A stretch of DNA of 49,516 nucleotides from a virus, in IMG/VR virus record IMGVR_UViG_3300047319_001496, positions 1 to 49,516 of that record; one strand, given 5' to 3'. Under the pieces are notes generated by a model. The model was not told the origin of the DNA, did no database searches, and saw only the letters and a program-made list of their open reading frames with translations. The position numbers and the translations under genes are program-made. Position 1 is the first letter of the stretch; every line of letters starts with the position of its first letter. Of the stretch, positions 3,110 to 13,186 are shown piece after piece.

Positions 3110-3560
3110 GCATCGCACCTCGGCCGCGCGTCTGATAGCGGCGGCGGCTTCTCGTTAAGTGAACCAGATTGATTTGGTCGTGACGGGAATGTTCGCGAGC
3201 ACACACACTGCGACCGATCTTGCGCGGGCGTCAATACGTAGTCCTGCTGGCACATTTCGCGCCGGAGAAAAATTATTGGTGACCGTTTTGGCTACTGCCG
3301 CGTTGCGGATTTCCCAATGATTGTCGCGGAATAGTGCCTCTGTGCCGCGTCTGCGAAGTACGCCGGAGTCGCGCTATCCGCTGCGCCTGCGCCGCGCCCG
3401 CCTTGACTATTTATTTTCCTGAGCGAAAGTTGATTGGTGGAAATGCAGCGCCAAATAGGCTGCGAATAGTGGCAATGAGTGGAAATAAGAAGCAACCAAT
3501 AACAATGAGTGGAAACCTGATGCGCTCGCCGCGGATGAACCTGACGAGTGACCTGTCCGC
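3110..3560. promoter_or_regulatory. Divergent early control region with repeated TGAGTGGAAA motifs
   Basis: About 450 bases without a convincing gene, between the leftward operon (from 3109) and the rightward operon (from 3869). It holds CAATGAGTGGAAA at 3473-3485 and again at 3503-3515, exactly 30 bases apart, a related GATTGGTGGAAA at 3432-3443, and AGCAACCAAT at 3491-3500. The same two words, ATGAGTGGAAA and AGCAACCAAT, recur together at 48704-48740 in another control region. The 30-base spacing (about three helical turns) fits operator sites for one protein. No consensus promoter stands out. Confidence 0.5.
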
Positions 3561-3570
3561 CGCGATCGCC

Positions 3571-3848
3571 GCGCGCCCGGCCATGACAAACGTGATGCCT
3601 AGGACAGGTATGCCGGGCGCGCACCTATCAACGAATACGGTCGCCATGATGTTGTTGAAGCCCAGTGATCCATTGCGACCGCGCGCGCCCGGCCAGGGGT
3701 CAAGCGATGTCCAGGAAAGGACTGCCGGGCGCGCACCTTTCCCCGAAAACGGTCGCCAGGCATGCCTTGAAACCCACAGGCATAGTGCGACCGCGCGCGC
3801 TCGGCCAGTTGAGCATTGATGCCCATGTGGTGCATGCCGGGCGCGCAC
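3571..3848 (+). repeat. Paired-hairpin array 1 (before first early gene)
   Basis: Contains three type II hairpins (arms GCGCGCCCGGC and GCCGGGCGCGC at 3571-3581/3612-3622, 3683-3693/3724-3734 and 3795-3805/3836-3846) and two type I hairpins (arms CGGTCGC and GCGACCG at 3638-3644/3675-3681 and 3750-3756/3787-3793). A decayed type I hairpin may precede it at about 3523-3567. Units repeat every 112 bases, so no reading frame is kept. Every loop has a variable 9-mer, a core close to TGAWGCCCA, and another variable 9-mer. The array ends just before the AAAGGAGG ribosome site of the gene at 3869. Confidence 0.9.
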
Positions 3849-3868
3849 TTTCTCAAAGGAGGTAGAGT

Positions 3869-4573
3869 GTGACTGCCATCAAAGATGCGTTCGCCAAAGC
3901 CGGAATAAACACACGGGCGCTCGATCTCCGCGCGGCCGCTAAGGAGGCTATCGACGCCGCAAAGGGCAACATTGGCCGCGCTGCGACTCGGTTTTCTGCG
4001 GTTCTCAAGAGCAAAGGCGATCTCCGCGAGGCTATCGCGCTCGATTATCTGCAACGCATCGCCGCCGAGCCGCCACAACCGGCCGCCGCAGAACAGCCGC
4101 AGGCACAGCCATCAGCCACGCCGGCCGCTGGATCGATCAAGGTCAAGGAGCACAAGGTTCGCCAGCATCGCCGCCGCACCCACGAGGAGCGCGAGGCCGC
4201 TTTGCGATCCGCCGGTCATGCCGCAGCATCGATGGCAAGCGCCTATGACCGCCAAATCGGTGGGCGGCCGATCGGCGAACTGCGGTGGGGCGAGCTGCAA
4301 GCGTTGCGGCACAATAACGCTTTCAACGCGGCCAGCTACCTCCGGTACGGCAACGAAGCCACGGCCAATTTCATTCTGCTCGACAAGATAGAGGCGCACG
4401 TCCGCGTCACCGACCATTCGTCCAAAGTCAAGGATGTCATCGGCGAGGCCCAGCTCCAACTTTTGAGCGACGAGGCCGATGTCGAGGCGCCGCGCCTGAT
4501 TGGGGAAGGTATGCAGGCGTGGGTCACATGGCTCGAGACGCAACGCGACACCCGCCGAGCCATCGCGCCATGA
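3869..4573 (+). CDS. Hypothetical early protein
   Basis: 234 residues from GTG 3869, with a strong AAAGGAGG site at 3856-3863. Residues 1-70 are helical and alanine-rich, residues 70-90 are a proline/alanine/glutamine linker, and residues 90-110 are strongly basic (VRQHRRRTHEER). The rest is helical with a hydrophobic core (NAFNAASYLRYGNEATANFI). I do not recognise the family. It is the first gene of the rightward operon and its stop overlaps the ATG of the second hairpin array (ATGA). The basic segment suggests nucleic-acid contact, which is inference. Confidence 0.7.
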   Translation: MTAIKDAFAKAGINTRALDLRAAAKEAIDAAKGNIGRAATRFSAVLKSKGDLREAIALDYLQRIAAEPPQPAAAEQPQAQPSATPAAGSIKVKEHKVRQHRRRTHEEREAALRSAGHAAASMASAYDRQIGGRPIGELRWGELQALRHNNAFNAASYLRYGNEATANFILLDKIEAHVRVTDHSSKVKDVIGEAQLQLLSDEADVEAPRLIGEGMQAWVTWLETQRDTRRAIAP

Positions 4574-4935
4574 ACAATATTCCGAATGCGGTCGCCATCG
4601 GGCAGATGAAGCCCAATGAGCCTTTGCGACCGCTCGCGCCCGGCCAAGCCCATGGTGATGCCCATTCGAGGGTTGCCGGGCGCGTCCCTATCAACCAATC
4701 GGTCGCCAGGCAGCCACTGAAACCCACAGAAGCGTTGCGACCGCGCGCGCCCGGCCAAGGTAGGCTTGATGCCCATTCGAAGAATGCCGGGCGCGTACCA
4801 ATCACCCATGCGGTCGCCATTTGCTGGTTGAAGTCCAACTTTGCCATGCGACCGCGCGCGCCCGGCCCCAAGGCTGGTGATACCCACCGTCGCCTTGCCG
4901 GGCGCGCACTTTCTCACAGGAGCGAACACGCATGA
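4570..4935 (+). CDS. Possible translated repeat ORF made of hairpin array 2
   Basis: An open frame of 121 residues that coincides with hairpin array 2. It begins with an ATGA overlap with the stop of the gene at 3869 and ends with an ATGA overlap with the gene at 4932. The 111-base unit keeps frame, giving three 37-residue repeats of the form xVAxxxLKPxxxLRPRAPGQxxxDAxxxxAGR, basic and proline-rich. Against a protein role: the stems are conserved at wobble positions and array 1 does not keep frame. Coupling at both ends argues that ribosomes cross the array. Not similar to any protein family I know. Confidence 0.35.
   Translation: MNNIPNAVAIGQMKPNEPLRPLAPGQAHGDAHSRVAGRVPINQSVARQPLKPTEALRPRAPGQGRLDAHSKNAGRVPITHAVAICWLKSNFAMRPRAPGPKAGDTHRRLAGRALSHRSEHA
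4589..4908 (+). repeat. Paired-hairpin array 2
   Basis: Three complete units at a 111-base period: type I arms start at 4589, 4700 and 4811, each followed by a type II hairpin (the last has its 3' arm at 4897-4907). Loops obey the 9+9+9 rule. Core variants are TGAAGCCCA, TGAAACCCA and TGAAGTCCA in type I, and TGATGCCCA and TGATACCCA in type II. In several copies the variable 9-mer pairs inside the loop, for example ATGG with CCAT and AGCCC with GGGTT in the first type II loop. It fills the gap between the genes at 3869 and 4932. Confidence 0.92.
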
Positions 4936-5750
4936 CCGCCATTGACGACATTAAGACCGAACACCGCTTCCGCCGGCAAGCGATGAAACAACAACAAAAA
5001 ATGGACCGTTCGCTTGAATCCTTTATTCGCATCAACGCGACCGGCTGGACGTGGGATGCCGACGAAAAGGAACGCGAGAAATACAATCGCGAGGTGAAAG
5101 CGATCATCACCGCGGCGCGCGAGGGGACTGGCGATCAGCGCATTTTCGAGCTGGTGCTGACGGTCGACAAGGGCCGCCAGCCATTCGACGAGCTGCGCGC
5201 CGGTTGCGAAAAGCGGATGGAGGAACTTGCAGCATCGCTGCCGGTCGCGGATTGGATCGACGGCATCCGCGGCGCCGGCCCGCTCGGCCTCGCGACCATC
5301 ATCGCCGAGACAGGCGATCTGTTGAACTATTCGAACCCCGCGAAAGTATGGAAGCGGCTCGGCTTCGCGCCCTACGACGGCCTCGCCGGATCGACATGGA
5401 AGCGCACGTCCTGGCGCCCGCGCGCGCTGACTTCCGAGGAGTGGGTCGAGCATCCTTTCTCCGGGCAACGATACGCGCTCATGCACCAGATCGCCATCTG
5501 GCTGGTGAACGCACAATGGATCAGCGCCAAGAAGGCCGGCGCCGACGAAGGGAAGCCTAAGGGCCCGTATGGCGAGATTTATGCGGCCCGGCGCGCACAC
5601 ACGGCGATCACTCACCCGGATTGGACGAAGGGTCATTCACGGATGGACGGCCTGCGAGTCGCGATGAAAGCCTTTCTGAAAGACTTGCATATCGAGTGGC
5701 ACGCCCGCGCCGGCCATGCGATCGAACGCCCGCGCCAGGCCGCGGAGTGA
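4932..5750 (+). CDS. IS110 Tnp_20-domain protein, phage-encoded, no DEDD domain
   Basis: 272 residues from ATG 4932 with CAGGAGC upstream. Residues about 104-150 match the C-terminal transposase_20 domain of IS110/IS116/IS902 transposases: helix-hairpin-helix-like WIDGIRGAGPLGLATIIAE, then KVWKRLGFAPYDG. Serines follow in GSTW and PFSG, near where IS110 enzymes carry their catalytic serine. The N-terminal DEDD RuvC-like domain of those enzymes is absent; residues 1-100 are charged helices instead. No transposon ends are visible and the gene is embedded in a phage operon, so it looks domesticated. It lies between hairpin arrays 2 and 3. The domain call is by motif only; its role is unknown. 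Confidence 0.7.
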   Translation: MTAIDDIKTEHRFRRQAMKQQQKMDRSLESFIRINATGWTWDADEKEREKYNREVKAIITAAREGTGDQRIFELVLTVDKGRQPFDELRAGCEKRMEELAASLPVADWIDGIRGAGPLGLATIIAETGDLLNYSNPAKVWKRLGFAPYDGLAGSTWKRTSWRPRALTSEEWVEHPFSGQRYALMHQIAIWLVNAQWISAKKAGADEGKPKGPYGEIYAARRAHTAITHPDWTKGHSRMDGLRVAMKAFLKDLHIEWHARAGHAIERPRQAAE

Positions 5751-6001
5751 TGATGATGTTTGCGGTCGCCAAAAACCGGCTGAAGCCCAGGTTGCTCATG
5801 CGACCGCGAAGCGCGCCCGGCCAGATAGTCATTGATGCCCAACAGCTCAATGCCGGGCGCGCACTTATTCCGTTTGCGGCCGCCATTTCATGGCTGAAGC
5901 CCATTCCGCCCATGCGACCGCGAAGCGCGCCCGGCCCCAAGGCTGGTGATACCCACCGTCGCCTTGCCGGGCGCGCACTTCCATTGCCGGTGATCCGATG
6001 A
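5750..6001 (+). CDS. Possible translated repeat ORF made of hairpin array 3
   Basis: An 83-residue open frame (MMMFAVAKNRLKP at the start) spanning hairpin array 3. Its first ATG overlaps the stop of the Tnp_20-domain gene and its TGA overlaps the ATG of the exonuclease gene at 5998. The 114-base unit keeps frame, giving two repeats of the same Pro/Arg-rich pattern as the frame at 4570. The downstream exonuclease start has no clear ribosome-binding site, so its translation may depend on coupling to this frame. Whether the peptide itself matters is unknown. Confidence 0.35.
   Translation: MMMFAVAKNRLKPRLLMRPRSAPGQIVIDAQQLNAGRALIPFAAAISWLKPIPPMRPRSAPGPKAGDTHRRLAGRALPLPVIR
5763..5978 (+). repeat. 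Paired-hairpin array 3
   Basis: Two units 114 bases apart; the extra bases come from a GAA insertion between the type I and type II stems (GCGACCGCGAAGCGCGCCC). Type I arms start at 5763 and 5877; the second has CGGCCGC instead of CGGTCGC, so that stem is one pair weaker. The last type II hairpin is identical, over about 55 bases, to the last type II hairpin of array 2, which points to recent copying. The array occupies the whole gap before the exonuclease gene. Confidence 0.9.
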
Positions 6002-6921
6002 TCGAGCGCATCGAGATCACCAGCCGCGATCAATGGCTGAATCTGCGCAAGCCGGACGTAACCGCCAGCGTCGTTGCCGCGCTCTTCGGCGCCCATCCGT
6101 ACACGTCGGCGCTCAAACTTTACCTCACCTATTCCGGAATCGAATTTGACCAAGCCGACGATCGCGTGTTGCGGCGTGGTCGGTTGATGGAGCCGGCGGT
6201 CGCGCTCGCAGTCAGCGAGGAGCGGGCGGACTGGAAGATCGAGAAATGCGATTCTTATTATCGTGATCCCGAACTCCATCTCGGTGCCACTCCCGATTTC
6301 TTCATTCACGGCGATCCGCGCGGCCTCGGCGTGTTGCAGACGAAGACCGCCGCCCCGCACATCTTTGAGCGCGACTGGGAAGGCGGCGCCACGGTGCCGT
6401 TTTGGATTCAACTGCAAGTGCTCACCGAAGCGATGCTGACCGAGGCCGCCTTCGGAGCCGTCGCCGTCCTGCGGGTCGATGCCTTCGATCTCGCATTGGC
6501 CCTCATCGAGGTGCCGCGGCACCCTGCCGCCGAGCAGCGCATCAAAGCGGCGGTCGCCCAATTCTGGGCTGACGTCGCCGCTGGACGTGAGCCAGATCCA
6601 GATTACGGCAAGGACGCCGAGCTGCTCAAGGTGATCGCGCCGCACGAGGTTGTCGGCACGACGGTCGACCTGAGCGGCGACAACGAACTGCCTGCGTTGC
6701 TCGATCAGCGCGCCGAGATCATGACGGCAATGAAAGGTTTCGAAGCCCGCAAGGACGAGATCGAGACCGCGATCAAATTTCGCATGCGCGACGCCGAAAG
6801 TGTCGTCGGCTTGCCGGATTGGAACATCACCTGGAAGACGACGCACAGAGCAGAATACGTCATGAAAGCAAAGGACATCCGCACGCTGCGCATCCATCAT
6901 CGCGCGGAGAACAAGCAATGA
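5998..6921 (+). CDS. YqaJ/lambda-exonuclease-type recombination nuclease (first copy)
   Basis: 307 residues, the usual size for YqaJ viral recombinases. It shows the PD-(D/E)XK nuclease order: TASVVAALFG near residue 25, RGRLMEPAVAL (Glu) near 65, LGATPDFFI (Asp) near 98, LQTKTAAPH (the QxK strand) near 117, and FWIQLQ (Gln) near 138. Such enzymes chew 5' ends to leave 3' single strands for an annealing protein. The partner RecT follows at 7056, with hairpin array 4 between. The start overlaps the preceding open frame by ATGA with no clear ribosome site. A second exonuclease/annealase pair lies at 17140-18839. Confidence 0.88.
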   Translation: MIERIEITSRDQWLNLRKPDVTASVVAALFGAHPYTSALKLYLTYSGIEFDQADDRVLRRGRLMEPAVALAVSEERADWKIEKCDSYYRDPELHLGATPDFFIHGDPRGLGVLQTKTAAPHIFERDWEGGATVPFWIQLQVLTEAMLTEAAFGAVAVLRVDAFDLALALIEVPRHPAAEQRIKAAVAQFWADVAAGREPDPDYGKDAELLKVIAPHEVVGTTVDLSGDNELPALLDQRAEIMTAMKGFEARKDEIETAIKFRMRDAESVVGLPDWNITWKTTHRAEYVMKAKDIRTLRIHHRAENKQ

Positions 6922-6928
6922 AAGTTTG

Positions 6929-7030
6929 CGGTCGCCACATAATCTCTGAAGCCCAAGCGCGAGGTGCGACCGCGAAGCGCGCCCGGCCGGGGCACGTGTG
7001 AAGCCCAACTTCAAGCTGCCGGGCGCGCAC
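6929..7030 (+). repeat. Paired-hairpin array 4 (single unit)
   Basis: One complete unit: type I arms at 6929-6935 and GCGACCG ending at 6972, type II arms at 6977-6987 and 7018-7028. Here the type II loop carries the type I core TGAAGCCCA, and the spacers pair internally (GGGC with GCCC, GAAG with CTTC). It starts nine bases after an ATGA at the end of the exonuclease gene, but the conserved frame is closed by a stop in the first loop; the coupled frame ends at 7001. So translation of the repeat peptide is not kept here. It ends before the GAGG site of recT. Confidence 0.9.
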
Positions 7031-7055: not shown

Positions 7056-7886
7056 ATGACCGAAGCCGCAACCAAACAAAACCACCCGCTGGTCGTGCTC
7101 AACTCTTATCTCCAGGAGCGCGTCGATTCCTTGCGCACGGCACTGCCGCCGCACATGAAGCCGGAACGGTTCATCTCGTCGGTGATGACCGCGGTGCAGC
7201 TCAACCCTGCTTTGATGGCGTGCGAGCGGCGTTCGCTCTGGCTTTCCTGCATGCGCTGCGCGCAAGACGGCTTGCTGCCGGACGGCCAGGAAGCGGCGAT
7301 CGTGCCCTACAAGGACAAGGCGCAATATCTGCCGATGTACCAAGGGCTGTTGAAGAAGTTCCGCAACAGCGGGCAGTTCCGTTGGGTCGGCACCGGCATC
7401 GTCTTCGAGGGCGACGTTTACGAGCATTGGATCACCCAGGAGGGCGAGCATTTTAAGCACGTCCCCGCCGACGATAATTCCGGCAAGAAAATCCGGCGGG
7501 TCTACGCGCTGGCGACCACCAAGGAGGGCGGTAGCTTCATCGCCGATCTTTCCATGGCCGAAATCGACAAGCGCCGCGCCATGAGCCGGGCCTCGCGCGA
7601 CGATGCGCCCTGGAAACAATGGCCGGACGAAATGATGAAGAAAACGGCATTGCGCGTGCTCTCGAAGCTGCTGCCGAAATCCAGCGACATCGACATATTC
7701 CTGCAGCGCGACGAGGCGGAATCGCTCGGCGTCGAAACCGTCCAGGCAATCGACGACCAGCGCGGCGCGGCATTCGGCAACGTGCTCGATCATTTCGCCG
7801 GGACGTCCCCCGACCAGCCTTCGACGGAGACGACGCCGACTGTGCCACCGCAATCCGAGACGATGACAGAGGAAATGCCAAAGTGA
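7056..7886 (+). CDS. recT: RecT single-strand annealing protein (first copy)
   Basis: 276 residues with the RecT family core: KPERFISSVMTAVQLNP, SCMRCAQDGLLPDGQEAAIV, QYLPMYQGLLKKFRNSG, then WPDEMMKKTALRVLSKLLP. The protein anneals complementary single strands produced by the exonuclease encoded just upstream, for recombination-dependent replication or end repair. A GAGG site at 7045-7048 precedes ATG 7056. The C-terminal 50 residues are a Pro/Thr-rich tail. The next gene begins by overlapping the stop (GTGA). High confidence. Confidence 0.92.
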   Translation: MTEAATKQNHPLVVLNSYLQERVDSLRTALPPHMKPERFISSVMTAVQLNPALMACERRSLWLSCMRCAQDGLLPDGQEAAIVPYKDKAQYLPMYQGLLKKFRNSGQFRWVGTGIVFEGDVYEHWITQEGEHFKHVPADDNSGKKIRRVYALATTKEGGSFIADLSMAEIDKRRAMSRASRDDAPWKQWPDEMMKKTALRVLSKLLPKSSDIDIFLQRDEAESLGVETVQAIDDQRGAAFGNVLDHFAGTSPDQPSTETTPTVPPQSETMTEEMPK

Positions 7887-10201: not shown

Positions 10202-10229
10202 TGGAAACCAGATTTTGAAAGCTAATCCC

Positions 10230-10751
10230 ATGATCCTTATTGGCCTCTATATTCTCACAATCCCGGCCGCGAATTGGCTGATTGGCAACTTCGGCACCGT
10301 TTGCATACCGAACGGCCCGTGCCTGATCCCCGTTGCGCCGGGCATCATGGCACCCTCTGGCGTGCTCATGATCGGGGCAGCGCTCGTCTTGCGCGACATC
10401 GTTCAGCGCCAGTACGGCGTGCGCTGGTCGCTCGTCTGCATTGGGGCAGGCACGGCGTTGTCATTCCTGATCGCCGTCCCAGCCCTCGCGCTGGCCTCTG
10501 GTGCTGCCTTCCTCATGTCCGAGTTGGCGGATTTTGCGGTTTATACGCCGCTCGCAAAAAGTCGGTTCGCATTGGCCATCGTGCTGAGCTGCCTTGCCGG
10601 TGCGGTCGTGGATAGCGCGCTTTTCCTTTGGCTGGCGTTCGGCTCGTTTGACCACATAACGGGACAGGTCATCGGCAAGGTCCATGCCGCAATTGCCTTC
10701 GTCGGCTGGCGCGCGGCGTCGTTGCGGCGAATGTCAGAGGGAGCCCTATGA
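10230..10751 (+). CDS. VUT-family transporter, queuosine-precursor (YhhQ-like)
   Basis: About 173 residues from ATG 10230 (a TTG at 10215 is in frame). It has four to five membrane segments and the family's marker region MAPSGVLMIGAALVLRDIVQ followed by a G-R pair, as in VUT/YhhQ transporters, which import the 7-deazaguanine precursors preQ0 and preQ1. It is shorter than bacterial YhhQ (about 220 residues), which is common in phage versions. Its stop overlaps the start of a DpdA-like gene, a pairing expected for phage DNA modified with 7-deazaguanines. Family call by motif; substrate inferred. Confidence 0.72.
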   Translation: MILIGLYILTIPAANWLIGNFGTVCIPNGPCLIPVAPGIMAPSGVLMIGAALVLRDIVQRQYGVRWSLVCIGAGTALSFLIAVPALALASGAAFLMSELADFAVYTPLAKSRFALAIVLSCLAGAVVDSALFLWLAFGSFDHITGQVIGKVHAAIAFVGWRAASLRRMSEGAL

Positions 10752-11431
10752 CCATGCATTACCACGGCACGCCGATCACGCCGATGACCGCGCTCTACGA
10801 ACTGGCGGGGCGGTGCTTCTGTGTGTCGTTTGCGCATCCGGCTGACGTGTCGCGCTGCCACATGATTGGGCAATCGGTGATGCTCGATAATGGGGCCTTC
10901 TCGAAATGGAAGAAGGGAACCCCGACGAATTGGCCGTCCTATTACGGATGGTCCGACGAATGGCTGAATTACCCGACGACCTGGGCCGTGATTCCGGATG
11001 AGATCGACGGCGGTGCCGATGTTCAAGACGGCCTGATCCTGCAGTGGCCGTTCGGGGAGCGCGGCGCCCCAGTCTGGCACATGGATGAACCGTTCGATCG
11101 CCTCGCTAAACTCTGCGACGGCTGGCCGAAAGTCTGCATCGGCTCGACCTCGAACTATGCCGATGTGATGTCGGATTCCTGGAAGCGCCGGATGGATGAG
11201 GCGTGGGATCGGCTGGCAAAGCAGCACCATCGCTTGCCGTGGGTCCACATGCTGCGCGGAATGGCCTGCTCGGGCGAGCGGTGGCCGTTTGCCTCTGTCG
11301 ATAGCACGGACATCGCCCGCAACCACAATCGAGATCAGAACACGGCACGCAAGATGGCGGATAGATGGGACATGGTGCAGTGCGGATCGAGTTGGGCCGT
11401 CTCGGCAAAGCAAGTGGAGTTGGCGCTGTAA
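10748..11431 (+). CDS. DpdA-like transglycosylase (TGT-fold DNA base exchange)
   Basis: 227 residues from ATG 10748 with AGAGGGA upstream. Two motifs match the tRNA-guanine transglycosylase fold: QSVMLDNGAFSKW, where Asp corresponds to the DSGGFQ general acid of TGT, and PFASVDSTDIARNHN, which resembles the FDCVxPTRxARN nucleophile loop. Phage DpdA proteins use this fold to swap guanine in DNA for a 7-deazaguanine base. The short length fits the compact phage subfamily. Direct coupling to a precursor transporter supports the role. No queCDE genes are present, so the precursor would come from the host. Confidence 0.65.
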   Translation: MTMHYHGTPITPMTALYELAGRCFCVSFAHPADVSRCHMIGQSVMLDNGAFSKWKKGTPTNWPSYYGWSDEWLNYPTTWAVIPDEIDGGADVQDGLILQWPFGERGAPVWHMDEPFDRLAKLCDGWPKVCIGSTSNYADVMSDSWKRRMDEAWDRLAKQHHRLPWVHMLRGMACSGERWPFASVDSTDIARNHNRDQNTARKMADRWDMVQCGSSWAVSAKQVELAL

Positions 11432-11962: not shown

Positions 11963-13186
11963 TTAGTTTCCCTTTCGTATTGAAACGACATTATCGGTGG
12001 ACGCCTCGTCCGCGCTGCCGGCGAGCTGCATGACATGCGCGGCCCACCGCTCGAGCGCGGCGCGACGCTGGTCGAGGTAGAGGGCCTTATTGTAGACGCC
12101 ACCCACGCCGCTCTTGTGGCCACCGACATGGCCGAGAATCGCCTCCACGATATGGGGCGGTACGTCGAAGCGCTCGTGCAAGGCGGTCGATATCGAGCGC
12201 CGGAAGTCGTGCAGGCGCCAGGGCGCCACCGCGGCGCCGAGCTTGGCGTCGAGCTGTTTTTTGGGCGCAGTGAATTGGGAGAACGGGCCGTCGCCGTAGC
12301 CGAAAACCAGATCTCGATCGGGCCGGTGCTGCAGCCGGGCCGCGAGGATGGCACGCGCGGGCGGCGAGAGCGGGATGACATGCTCGCGCCTATTCTTGAC
12401 GCGGGCGCCCGGCAGGGTGATCAGCGCCGCCCCAATATCGACCTCGCCGCGCCGCAGGCTAGCGATCTCGTCGCGCCGGGCACCGGTGAGGATGAGAAGC
12501 CGGACGATGGCCGCATAGTCGTCGTCCACGGCATCGCCGAGCGCGCGCCAGATAGCGCCGAGCTCGGGATCAGTGACGACGTGGTCGCGGACGAAGGGTT
12601 CGCACGGCAGGTTCGTGAATGCGACCGGGTTGCTCTCGATCAGCCCTTCGCGGCAGGCCCACATAAAGAACGCGGACCAGGAAGCGCGCGACCTGGTGGC
12701 CGTCGCCGCGCCGCTGGACGCGCTGACCTCGGTGAGGCGCCGGGCGATCATGGCGCGGGTCACGGCCGTAATCGCCTCGCGGTGCAGCGGGAGCAAATGC
12801 TTGTTGAGGTGCCGGATTACCTCGCGCAGTGTCGCCGGCTTCAACCGCGGGCGCTTCCAGTCGAAGTATCGCGGCAGCAGGGCGCCGATCGTGGTGGCCG
12901 CCTCGACCCGAGCGCGAGATCGGTCGGCCGCCGGGTCGCCGCCAAGCTGGCGGACCGCCAGCAAGTCCTTGGCCTTGGCGCGCGCCGCGGCTGCGGGAAC
13001 GATCGCCGGCGAGCCGAACGATATCTTCCGGGCCCGGCCGTCGACCTCGTACATGACGGTCCAGGTCCGGGCGCCGCCGGCGCGGACGCGGAGCCCGAAG
13101 CCGGGGATGTCCTCATCCCAGAATGTCGTGTCGATCTTGCCGGCCGGGCAGGCCAGGGTGCGGATCGTCTTGTCGGAGAGCTTCAT
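11963..13186 (-). CDS. int: Tyrosine-recombinase integrase (DUF4102 type)
   Basis: 407 residues. The N-terminal 90 residues are the Arm-binding DUF4102 domain (KLSDKTIRTLACPAGKID, DEDIPGFGLRVR). The catalytic domain shows Arg in LTGARRDEIASL, the LHDFRRS box, LGHVGG, and the nucleophile Tyr in VYNKALY. It catalyses integration and excision of the phage. Its promoter side (13187-13500) carries phased repeats that look like its own arm-type sites, so attP probably lies there. It converges with the early operon. Confidence 0.93.
   Translation of the reverse strand: MKLSDKTIRTLACPAGKIDTTFWDEDIPGFGLRVRAGGARTWTVMYEVDGRARKISFGSPAIVPAAAARAKAKDLLAVRQLGGDPAADRSRARVEAATTIGALLPRYFDWKRPRLKPATLREVIRHLNKHLLPLHREAITAVTRAMIARRLTEVSASSGAATATRSRASWSAFFMWACREGLIESNPVAFTNLPCEPFVRDHVVTDPELGAIWRALGDAVDDDYAAIVRLLILTGARRDEIASLRRGEVDIGAALITLPGARVKNRREHVIPLSPPARAILAARLQHRPDRDLVFGYGDGPFSQFTAPKKQLDAKLGAAVAPWRLHDFRRSISTALHERFDVPPHIVEAILGHVGGHKSGVGGVYNKALYLDQRRAALERWAAHVMQLAGSADEASTDNVVSIRKGN

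Follow-up and report, generated by a model that had tools for sequence, protein, structure and literature searches.

A phage-borne TIGR-TasA stem-loop system with a predicted 17-bp targeting rule and edge guides resembling neighbouring-gene alleles of related phages

The 49,516-base virus record IMGVR_UViG_3300047319_001496, from a soil phage (the window, to which all coordinates refer unless another phage is named) carries a four-gene operon in the region 3571–7028, in which arrays of hairpins occupy the gap preceding each gene and one gene, tasA, encodes a TasA-type protein of the TIGR-Tas systems. All four genes lie on the + strand. The first (3869–4573) is an open reading frame (ORF) with a weak DUF6195 match; it is flanked by arrays 1 and 2 and is a conserved neighbour of tasA. 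It is followed by tasA (4932–5750), the product of which (272 amino acids) has a solo Nop domain with a coiled coil and is without a nuclease, as judged by PDB profile search, AlphaFold model and fold comparison. The operon continues with yqaJ (5998–6921; YqaJ/RecE-like exonuclease) and recT (7056–7886; RecT annealing protein), both assigned from Pfam and PHROG; target matches make these the neighbours, and the predicted target genes, of array-4 guides A and B, respectively.

The 17 hairpins, every one on the coding strand (+), form four intergenic clusters: array 1 (3571–3846; five hairpins, types B, A, B, A, B), upstream of the ORF; array 2 (4588–4907; three A-B units), between the ORF and tasA; array 3 (5762–5976; two A-B units), between tasA and yqaJ; and array 4 (6926–7028; one A-B unit), between yqaJ and recT. 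RNA folding was included in the evidence for arrays 2 and 4. The initial annotation, made from the sequence of the window alone, had reported hairpin units on both sides of tasA between 4589 and 5978; these are present, but the arrays extend well beyond those limits, into all four gaps. Array 4 is missing in some relatives, where yqaJ and recT abut, and in this sequence comparison the yqaJ-recT junction of such hairpin-free phages is the natural empty site of array 4.

Hairpin stems are 8–11 bp and loops exactly 30 nt, with the pattern CA-N9-TGANNYCCA-N9-T, in which the core is fixed (TGAWGCCCA or near variants in the loops of this record) and both 9-mers, termed spacers A and B below, are variable. 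Two stem types, A (GCGGTCGC...GCGACCGC) and B ((GC)GCGCCCGGC...GCCGGGCGC(GC)), alternate in most units, and representative hairpins gave RNA folding z-scores of -2.5 to -3.5. The pattern is far beyond chance: loops of 30 nt with at least 7 of 10 motif positions number 1278 in the collected sequences, a count that includes overlapping loci, vs 0 in reversed and complemented controls, and when stem and boxes alone are fixed both spacers come out at 9 nt in 224 of 226 cases. The window matches no Rfam family; for the array region this holds at the gathering threshold and also with E relaxed to 1. The last B loops of array 2 (4867–4896) and array 3 (5936–5965) are identical (CCCAAGGCTGGTGATACCCACCGTCGCCTT), representing a duplicated guide for which no target was found.

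For the protein encoded by tasA the sole Pfam match was Transposase_20 (19 bits, just below the 21.3 cut-off), and it also matches PHROG 4285 (‘transposase’). It has the C-terminal (Nop-type) domain of IS110, and a DEDD domain is absent, both in Pfam and PHROG searches and in the AlphaFold model, in agreement with the initial annotation, which had described an IS110 C-terminal domain without DEDD. Searched with a profile of 23 homologues, the PDB gave hits to TasR (9mty, E 5.6e-10) and TasH (E 0.0024) only. The AlphaFold model (pLDDT, predicted local distance difference test, 90) consists of a coiled coil plus a Nop-type domain, and its best fold matches are TasH (Z 17.1, 3.1 Å over 209 residues) and TasR (Z 16.5, 2.8 Å over 195 residues). 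IS621, the comparison proposed in the initial annotation, and ISCro4 score lower (Z about 13), and Nop5/56/58 match with Z about 7 over 144–177 residues, in the range of common arrangements.

TIGR-Tas systems combine a Nop-domain protein with dual spacers of 8–12 nt and two boxes, C (CCA) and D (UG) (Faure et al. 2025, PMC12045711). One subtype has tandem stem-loops in subarrays with nuclease-less TasA, and loop repeats that are constant in both length and sequence were considered a possible intermediate between array types (PMC12045711). Since the closest relatives of the protein are TasR and TasH, the locus is assigned to TIGR-Tas rather than to a domesticated IS110 element, and its identification as a phage-borne system of the stem-loop-array kind with nuclease-less TasA is well supported. 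It shares with that subtype a solo Nop-domain Tas homologue (PDB profile; fold Z 16–17), tandem stem-loops in subarrays, a pair of 9-nt spacers bordered by boxes C (CCA) and D (UG), and palindromic stems, here varying by locus but staying complementary, where other arrays have edge repeats. Matching of the two spacers to opposite strands of one DNA target was found computationally (spacer A plus reverse complement of B, with 1-bp overlap). Unlike published stem-loop TIGR, the loop repeat here does not vary in length (9 nt, TG-NNNN-CCA), a trait of dual-repeat arrays, and the stems mostly alternate between A and B; unlike TIGR-Tas as published, one spacer base covaries and edge guides have recognisable targets. 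Box C/D small nucleolar ribonucleoproteins (Nop5, Nop56/58) may share the Nop fold with this system and resemble it in having C/D-like boxes around two guide segments, but here the targets appear to be DNA rather than RNA and no fibrillarin or L7Ae partner was seen.

An exact pattern search of IMG/VR identified 28 further stretches in 25 records, 10 of which encode the TasA-type protein at 60–100% identity. Eight more homologues, found by alignment search and picked by protein alone, all lie inside arrays of hairpins with 30-nt loops, with other cores (TGAACTCCA, TGAAACCCA, TGATAYCCA) and with stems that are different yet still complementary. Twelve more distant homologues (28–56% identity; loci retrieved via a loose hairpin pattern) are likewise inside hairpin arrays. 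In INPHARED the sole relative is gene 255 of Arthrobacter phage Talia1610, with palindromic hairpins (31–34-nt loops) just upstream. The proposal that hairpins and protein belong together thus holds for homologues down to about 28% identity, and homologues without nearby hairpins, named beforehand as the case that would count against it, were not found among the 8 protein-picked and 12 distant homologues, nor in Talia1610. A DNA search of INPHARED gave no match, and neither relatives of the protein nor hairpins fitting the strict pattern were found in GTDB genomes. All phages compared are metagenomic contigs, with one exception. In Talia1610 (L267; 5500–5700) two copies of a promoter-like repeat (TTGACTCTG...TAGAGTATA) lie between hairpins that precede gene 255, and single guides in this phage may thus have their own promoters.

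Strong covariation across 463 loops is confined to a single pair of spacer positions, the final bases of spacers A and B. These are Watson-Crick partners in 47% of loops (24% expected, z 11.7) and paired in 72% in total if wobble is included. In 427 dereplicated loops the figure is 48% vs 24%, with a maximum of 32% in 2000 permutations, and G-U pairs are also enriched, adding 22%. The published geometry, as we derive it from 3′ overhangs of 8 nt, has both spacers ending (3′) at the target centre; complementary spacer ends would therefore place both guides on the same central base pair, giving a target of 17 bp that reads as spacer A followed by the reverse complement of spacer B minus one base. 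Matches in sequence support this model: in 1.7 Mb of non-redundant collected sequence it gave 3 exact and 27 one-mismatch matches, vs about 0.1 and 13 for shuffled pairings, while without overlap, or with a 1-base gap, there were just 3 one-mismatch matches and no exact match in the same 1.7 Mb. Target models with no overlap, a 2-bp overlap or gaps showed no clear excess over shuffled pairings and were rejected. The initial annotation had suggested that the hairpins, with two variable 9-mers in each loop, could be guide-like, and had recommended a search with the 9-mers as pairs; the excess of genomic matches at 1-bp overlap upholds this and extends it to a two-segment guide for the two strands of a DNA target, and the many copies with different 9-mers are supported as a set of specificities.

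Published arrays showed no obvious spacer covariation, and spacer overlap was judged unlikely (PMC12045711), so the one-base overlap appears to be a difference of this subtype. Alternatively, the complementary ends could form a base pair inside the guide RNA and not reflect overlap on the target. The G-U enrichment is as an RNA pair would give, but such a pair does not predict a match excess confined to the 1-bp-overlap model, and on balance this is an unlikely, though not negligible, sole explanation; the two are not mutually exclusive. Overlap on the target would provide a targeting rule for the subtype: 17 bp, with the centre read twice.

When guides were compared with their own genomes, a clear excess of matches was again seen with the 1-bp overlap only, mainly less than 800 bp from the hairpin and antisense to genes. 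The last hairpin of an array matches the downstream gene, antisense and with at most 3 mismatches, in 8 cases, where 0.5 were expected and 300 guide swaps never gave more than 3, and the first hairpin matches the upstream gene in 5 (0.3 expected, at most 2 in swaps); genes on the opposite side, and inner hairpins vs neighbouring genes, were at background level. A 5-residue peptide test gave 11 matches of the last hairpin to the downstream gene vs 0.33 expected. The outermost guide differs from the adjacent gene by 1–5 mismatches, mostly at codon third positions. Hits with at most 4 mismatches number 27, where chance would give about 6. Of the 74 mismatched codons in them, 41 are synonymous (controls, about 21%), and in 12 hits the peptide is unchanged, the own gene differing by synonymous codons only and the mismatches being spaced in multiples of three bases. 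Kept peptides include HFKHVP (recT, three phages), MKAFLKD, FAMKVQ and VDAIRM (tasA), and QREEIM (yqaJ), among others. As the peptide is kept and the codons differ, these guides match neighbouring-gene alleles in which other codons are used. The counts include related phages, which are not independent of one another; by our own count about 18 target sites are non-homologous.

Array 4 carries one such guide for each of its flanking genes. Loop A (6936–6965, +; spacers CATAATCTC / AGCGCGAGG) predicts the 17-bp target CATAATCTCCTCGCGCT, which resembles yqaJ alleles: the own, differently coded counterpart (6707–6723, - strand) has 3 mismatches and the allele of the related phage G019 (IMGVR_UViG_3300046517_001820) has 2. 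Loop B (6988–7017, +; spacers GGGCACGTG / ACTTCAAGC; target GGGCACGTGCTTGAAGT) resembles recT alleles, and its own, recoded counterpart in the HFKHVP codons of recT (7450–7466, - strand) has 3 mismatches, all synonymous, vs 2 in relatives. Guides preceding recT in G011 and in the L151/L239 phage have 4 and 3 mismatches, respectively, to their own recT and 1 each to the nearest relative.

Exact matches were found in other phages. The guide just upstream of tasA in G019 matches tasA of the present record 17/17 (5037–5053, - strand) and is also exact in tasA of G008, while G019's own tasA has 6 mismatches. In G002 both guides of a unit are aimed at the adjacent gene, with 0 and 2 mismatches to the G012 version and 4 and 5 to G002's own. 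An inner guide of the present record (array 2, loop A; 4818–4847, +; spacers TTTGCTGGT / ACTTTGCCA) exactly matches a CTTTGC-N5-GCAAAG palindrome of the related phage G021 (L070) that is absent from the record itself. On the array-oriented strand of G021, at about 12,500–13,000, three CTTTGC-N5/6-GCAAAG palindromes lie near two helix-turn-helix-like regulators, before yqaJ, and resemble a phage repressor operator set. The own allele was never exact among the guides tested and, of 9 guide-allele comparisons in the group of the present record, 8 showed it to fit less well than the best relative.

We consider it probable, at roughly three in four, that this phage TIGR-TasA system uses guides directed against the alleles of relatives, with its own neighbouring allele recoded, in competition between phages. 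The arrays would be transcribed together with the surrounding early genes and each hairpin processed to one guide, the 9-nt spacers pairing with opposite strands of the DNA target, meeting at their 3′ ends and reading one central base pair of the 17. Guides at array edges would be aimed at alleles of the adjacent gene in related phages, and the own allele, often the same peptide in other codons, would be spared. In a mixed infection TasA may bind the rival's recombination genes, tasA or operator, and such binding could block use of these genes or bias recombination toward the array-bearing segment. Because TasA has no nuclease, the likeliest outcomes would be blocked transcription or replication, or a recombination bias involving the neighbouring YqaJ/RecT pair. 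A guide beside a recoded gene would act as linked poison and antidote, and recombinants would be protected from self-targeting, on the same principle as in marker exclusion and cleave-and-rescue drives. Marker exclusion is known in phages from free-standing homing endonucleases such as SegF of T4. There, as proposed here, the element adjoins the gene whose foreign alleles it targets and its own allele is resistant, but the present system differs in being RNA-guided, with many changeable guides and a TasA lacking nuclease. The fuller proposal, that TIGR-TasA arrays are natural RNA-guided poison-antidote elements of cleave-and-rescue-like or marker-exclusion type (edge guides against rival alleles, tasA and operators; immune own allele; 1-bp overlap), is given only slightly better than even odds.

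Several observations weigh against guides directed at relatives. A recognisable target exists for about 20 of 209 outermost or single guides, and inner guides, which make up most of the array, have no match exceeding background. Only three independent cases of an exact match in a relative were found; a scan of recT alleles with the HFKHVP motif found no exact match to the recT guides, the nearest having 1–2 mismatches, and for yqaJ of G021 the own allele ties with the best relative. The antisense strand bias of targets is not explained by a near-symmetric ribonucleoprotein, and TasA has no nuclease through which binding would give an advantage.

Binding of TasA and its guides to their own neighbouring genes despite the mismatches, tuning operon expression, is a rather improbable alternative. 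Edge guides do resemble their own adjacent gene, and TIGR cleavage tolerates some mismatches near spacer edges (PMC12045711), but the mismatches to the own allele are often mid-spacer (e.g. A4 and B5), and the failure of any tested guide to match its own allele exactly, the 8 of 9 comparisons favouring a relative and the exact matches in other phages instead all argue against such autoregulation. Slightly less probable still is that the guides are relics, copied from the own neighbouring gene and since drifted, or left when that gene was replaced by recombination, with no current targeting of relatives. The adjacency of guides and genes, the mosaic nature of phage genes and the many inner guides without a match would fit; drift, however, predicts many guides with 0–1 mismatches to the own gene (0 was found in none and 1 in very few), and spacer length, boxes and stems are strictly kept.

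The initial annotation had raised, as a speculation, a relation to bridge RNAs, with the hairpins as guide-like or binding partners in a domesticated RNA-guided device split over genes, and had pointed to a separate RuvC-like protein encoded at 1908–2462. In the corresponding alternative the two hairpins of a unit would be target and donor loops, and the protein a domesticated IS110 recombinase acting with that RuvC-like protein. The Nop-type C-terminal fold is indeed common to TasA and IS621, as are guides formed by two segments in one loop, and each unit has two loops. The closest family by both PDB profile and fold is nevertheless Tas, the DEDD catalytic domain is lacking, and the guides are many and single-looped, whereas a bridge RNA unites a target loop and a donor loop in one molecule; no shared core base was found between the A and B loops of a unit, their central bases being uncorrelated. 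The protein at 1908–2462 is RuvC-like (PHROG 159), but as relatives without arrays encode it too, it is not part of the system. Bridge-RNA-like recombination is accordingly very improbable, although a relation of the system to IS110 and bridge RNA is supported. Ordinary operon hairpins (processing, stabilising or antitermination) with meaningless loop 9-mers, which stable folds between co-directional genes might suggest, are equally improbable: against them stand the linkage to Tas proteins down to about 28% identity and the strict 9/9 spacers with covarying ends, and the gene-specific, peptide-level target matches already largely refute them.

Natural TIGR targets and the origin of spacers were open questions for the discoverers, who noted that targets are hard to find (PMC12045711). 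The spacer-end covariation with its 17-bp rule and the targets predicted for edge guides go beyond that study, and a literature search, with preprints and most subscription journals outside its reach, found no paper on natural TIGR targets. Predicted natural targets in the form of a neighbouring gene's alleles in related phages, the own copy being recoded at synonymous sites, make TIGR function testable, and suggest that RNA-guided warfare between phages can act like gene drive.

Directly upstream of array 1, at 3542–3558 and on the same strand, TGACGAGTGACCTGTCC agrees at all but 3 positions with the target of that array's first B guide; it is in sense orientation, unlike other targets. Just upstream of array 1 there are also three near-direct repeats (3431–3516; TGATTGGTGGAAATG, CAATGAGTGGAAATA and CAATGAGTGGAAACC, ~30–40 bp apart), possibly an operator or origin iterons of the operon. 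In phage G009 (L060; 658 and 2007) the last guide of one array matches a phage integrase gene 1.3 kb downstream with 2 mismatches. Farther along the present record, 10215–11431 encodes a putative queuosine-precursor transporter (Pfam Vut_1) and, after it, a queuine tRNA-ribosyltransferase-like protein (PHROG 887); this gene pair suggests that the phage modifies tRNA or DNA with 7-deazaguanine.
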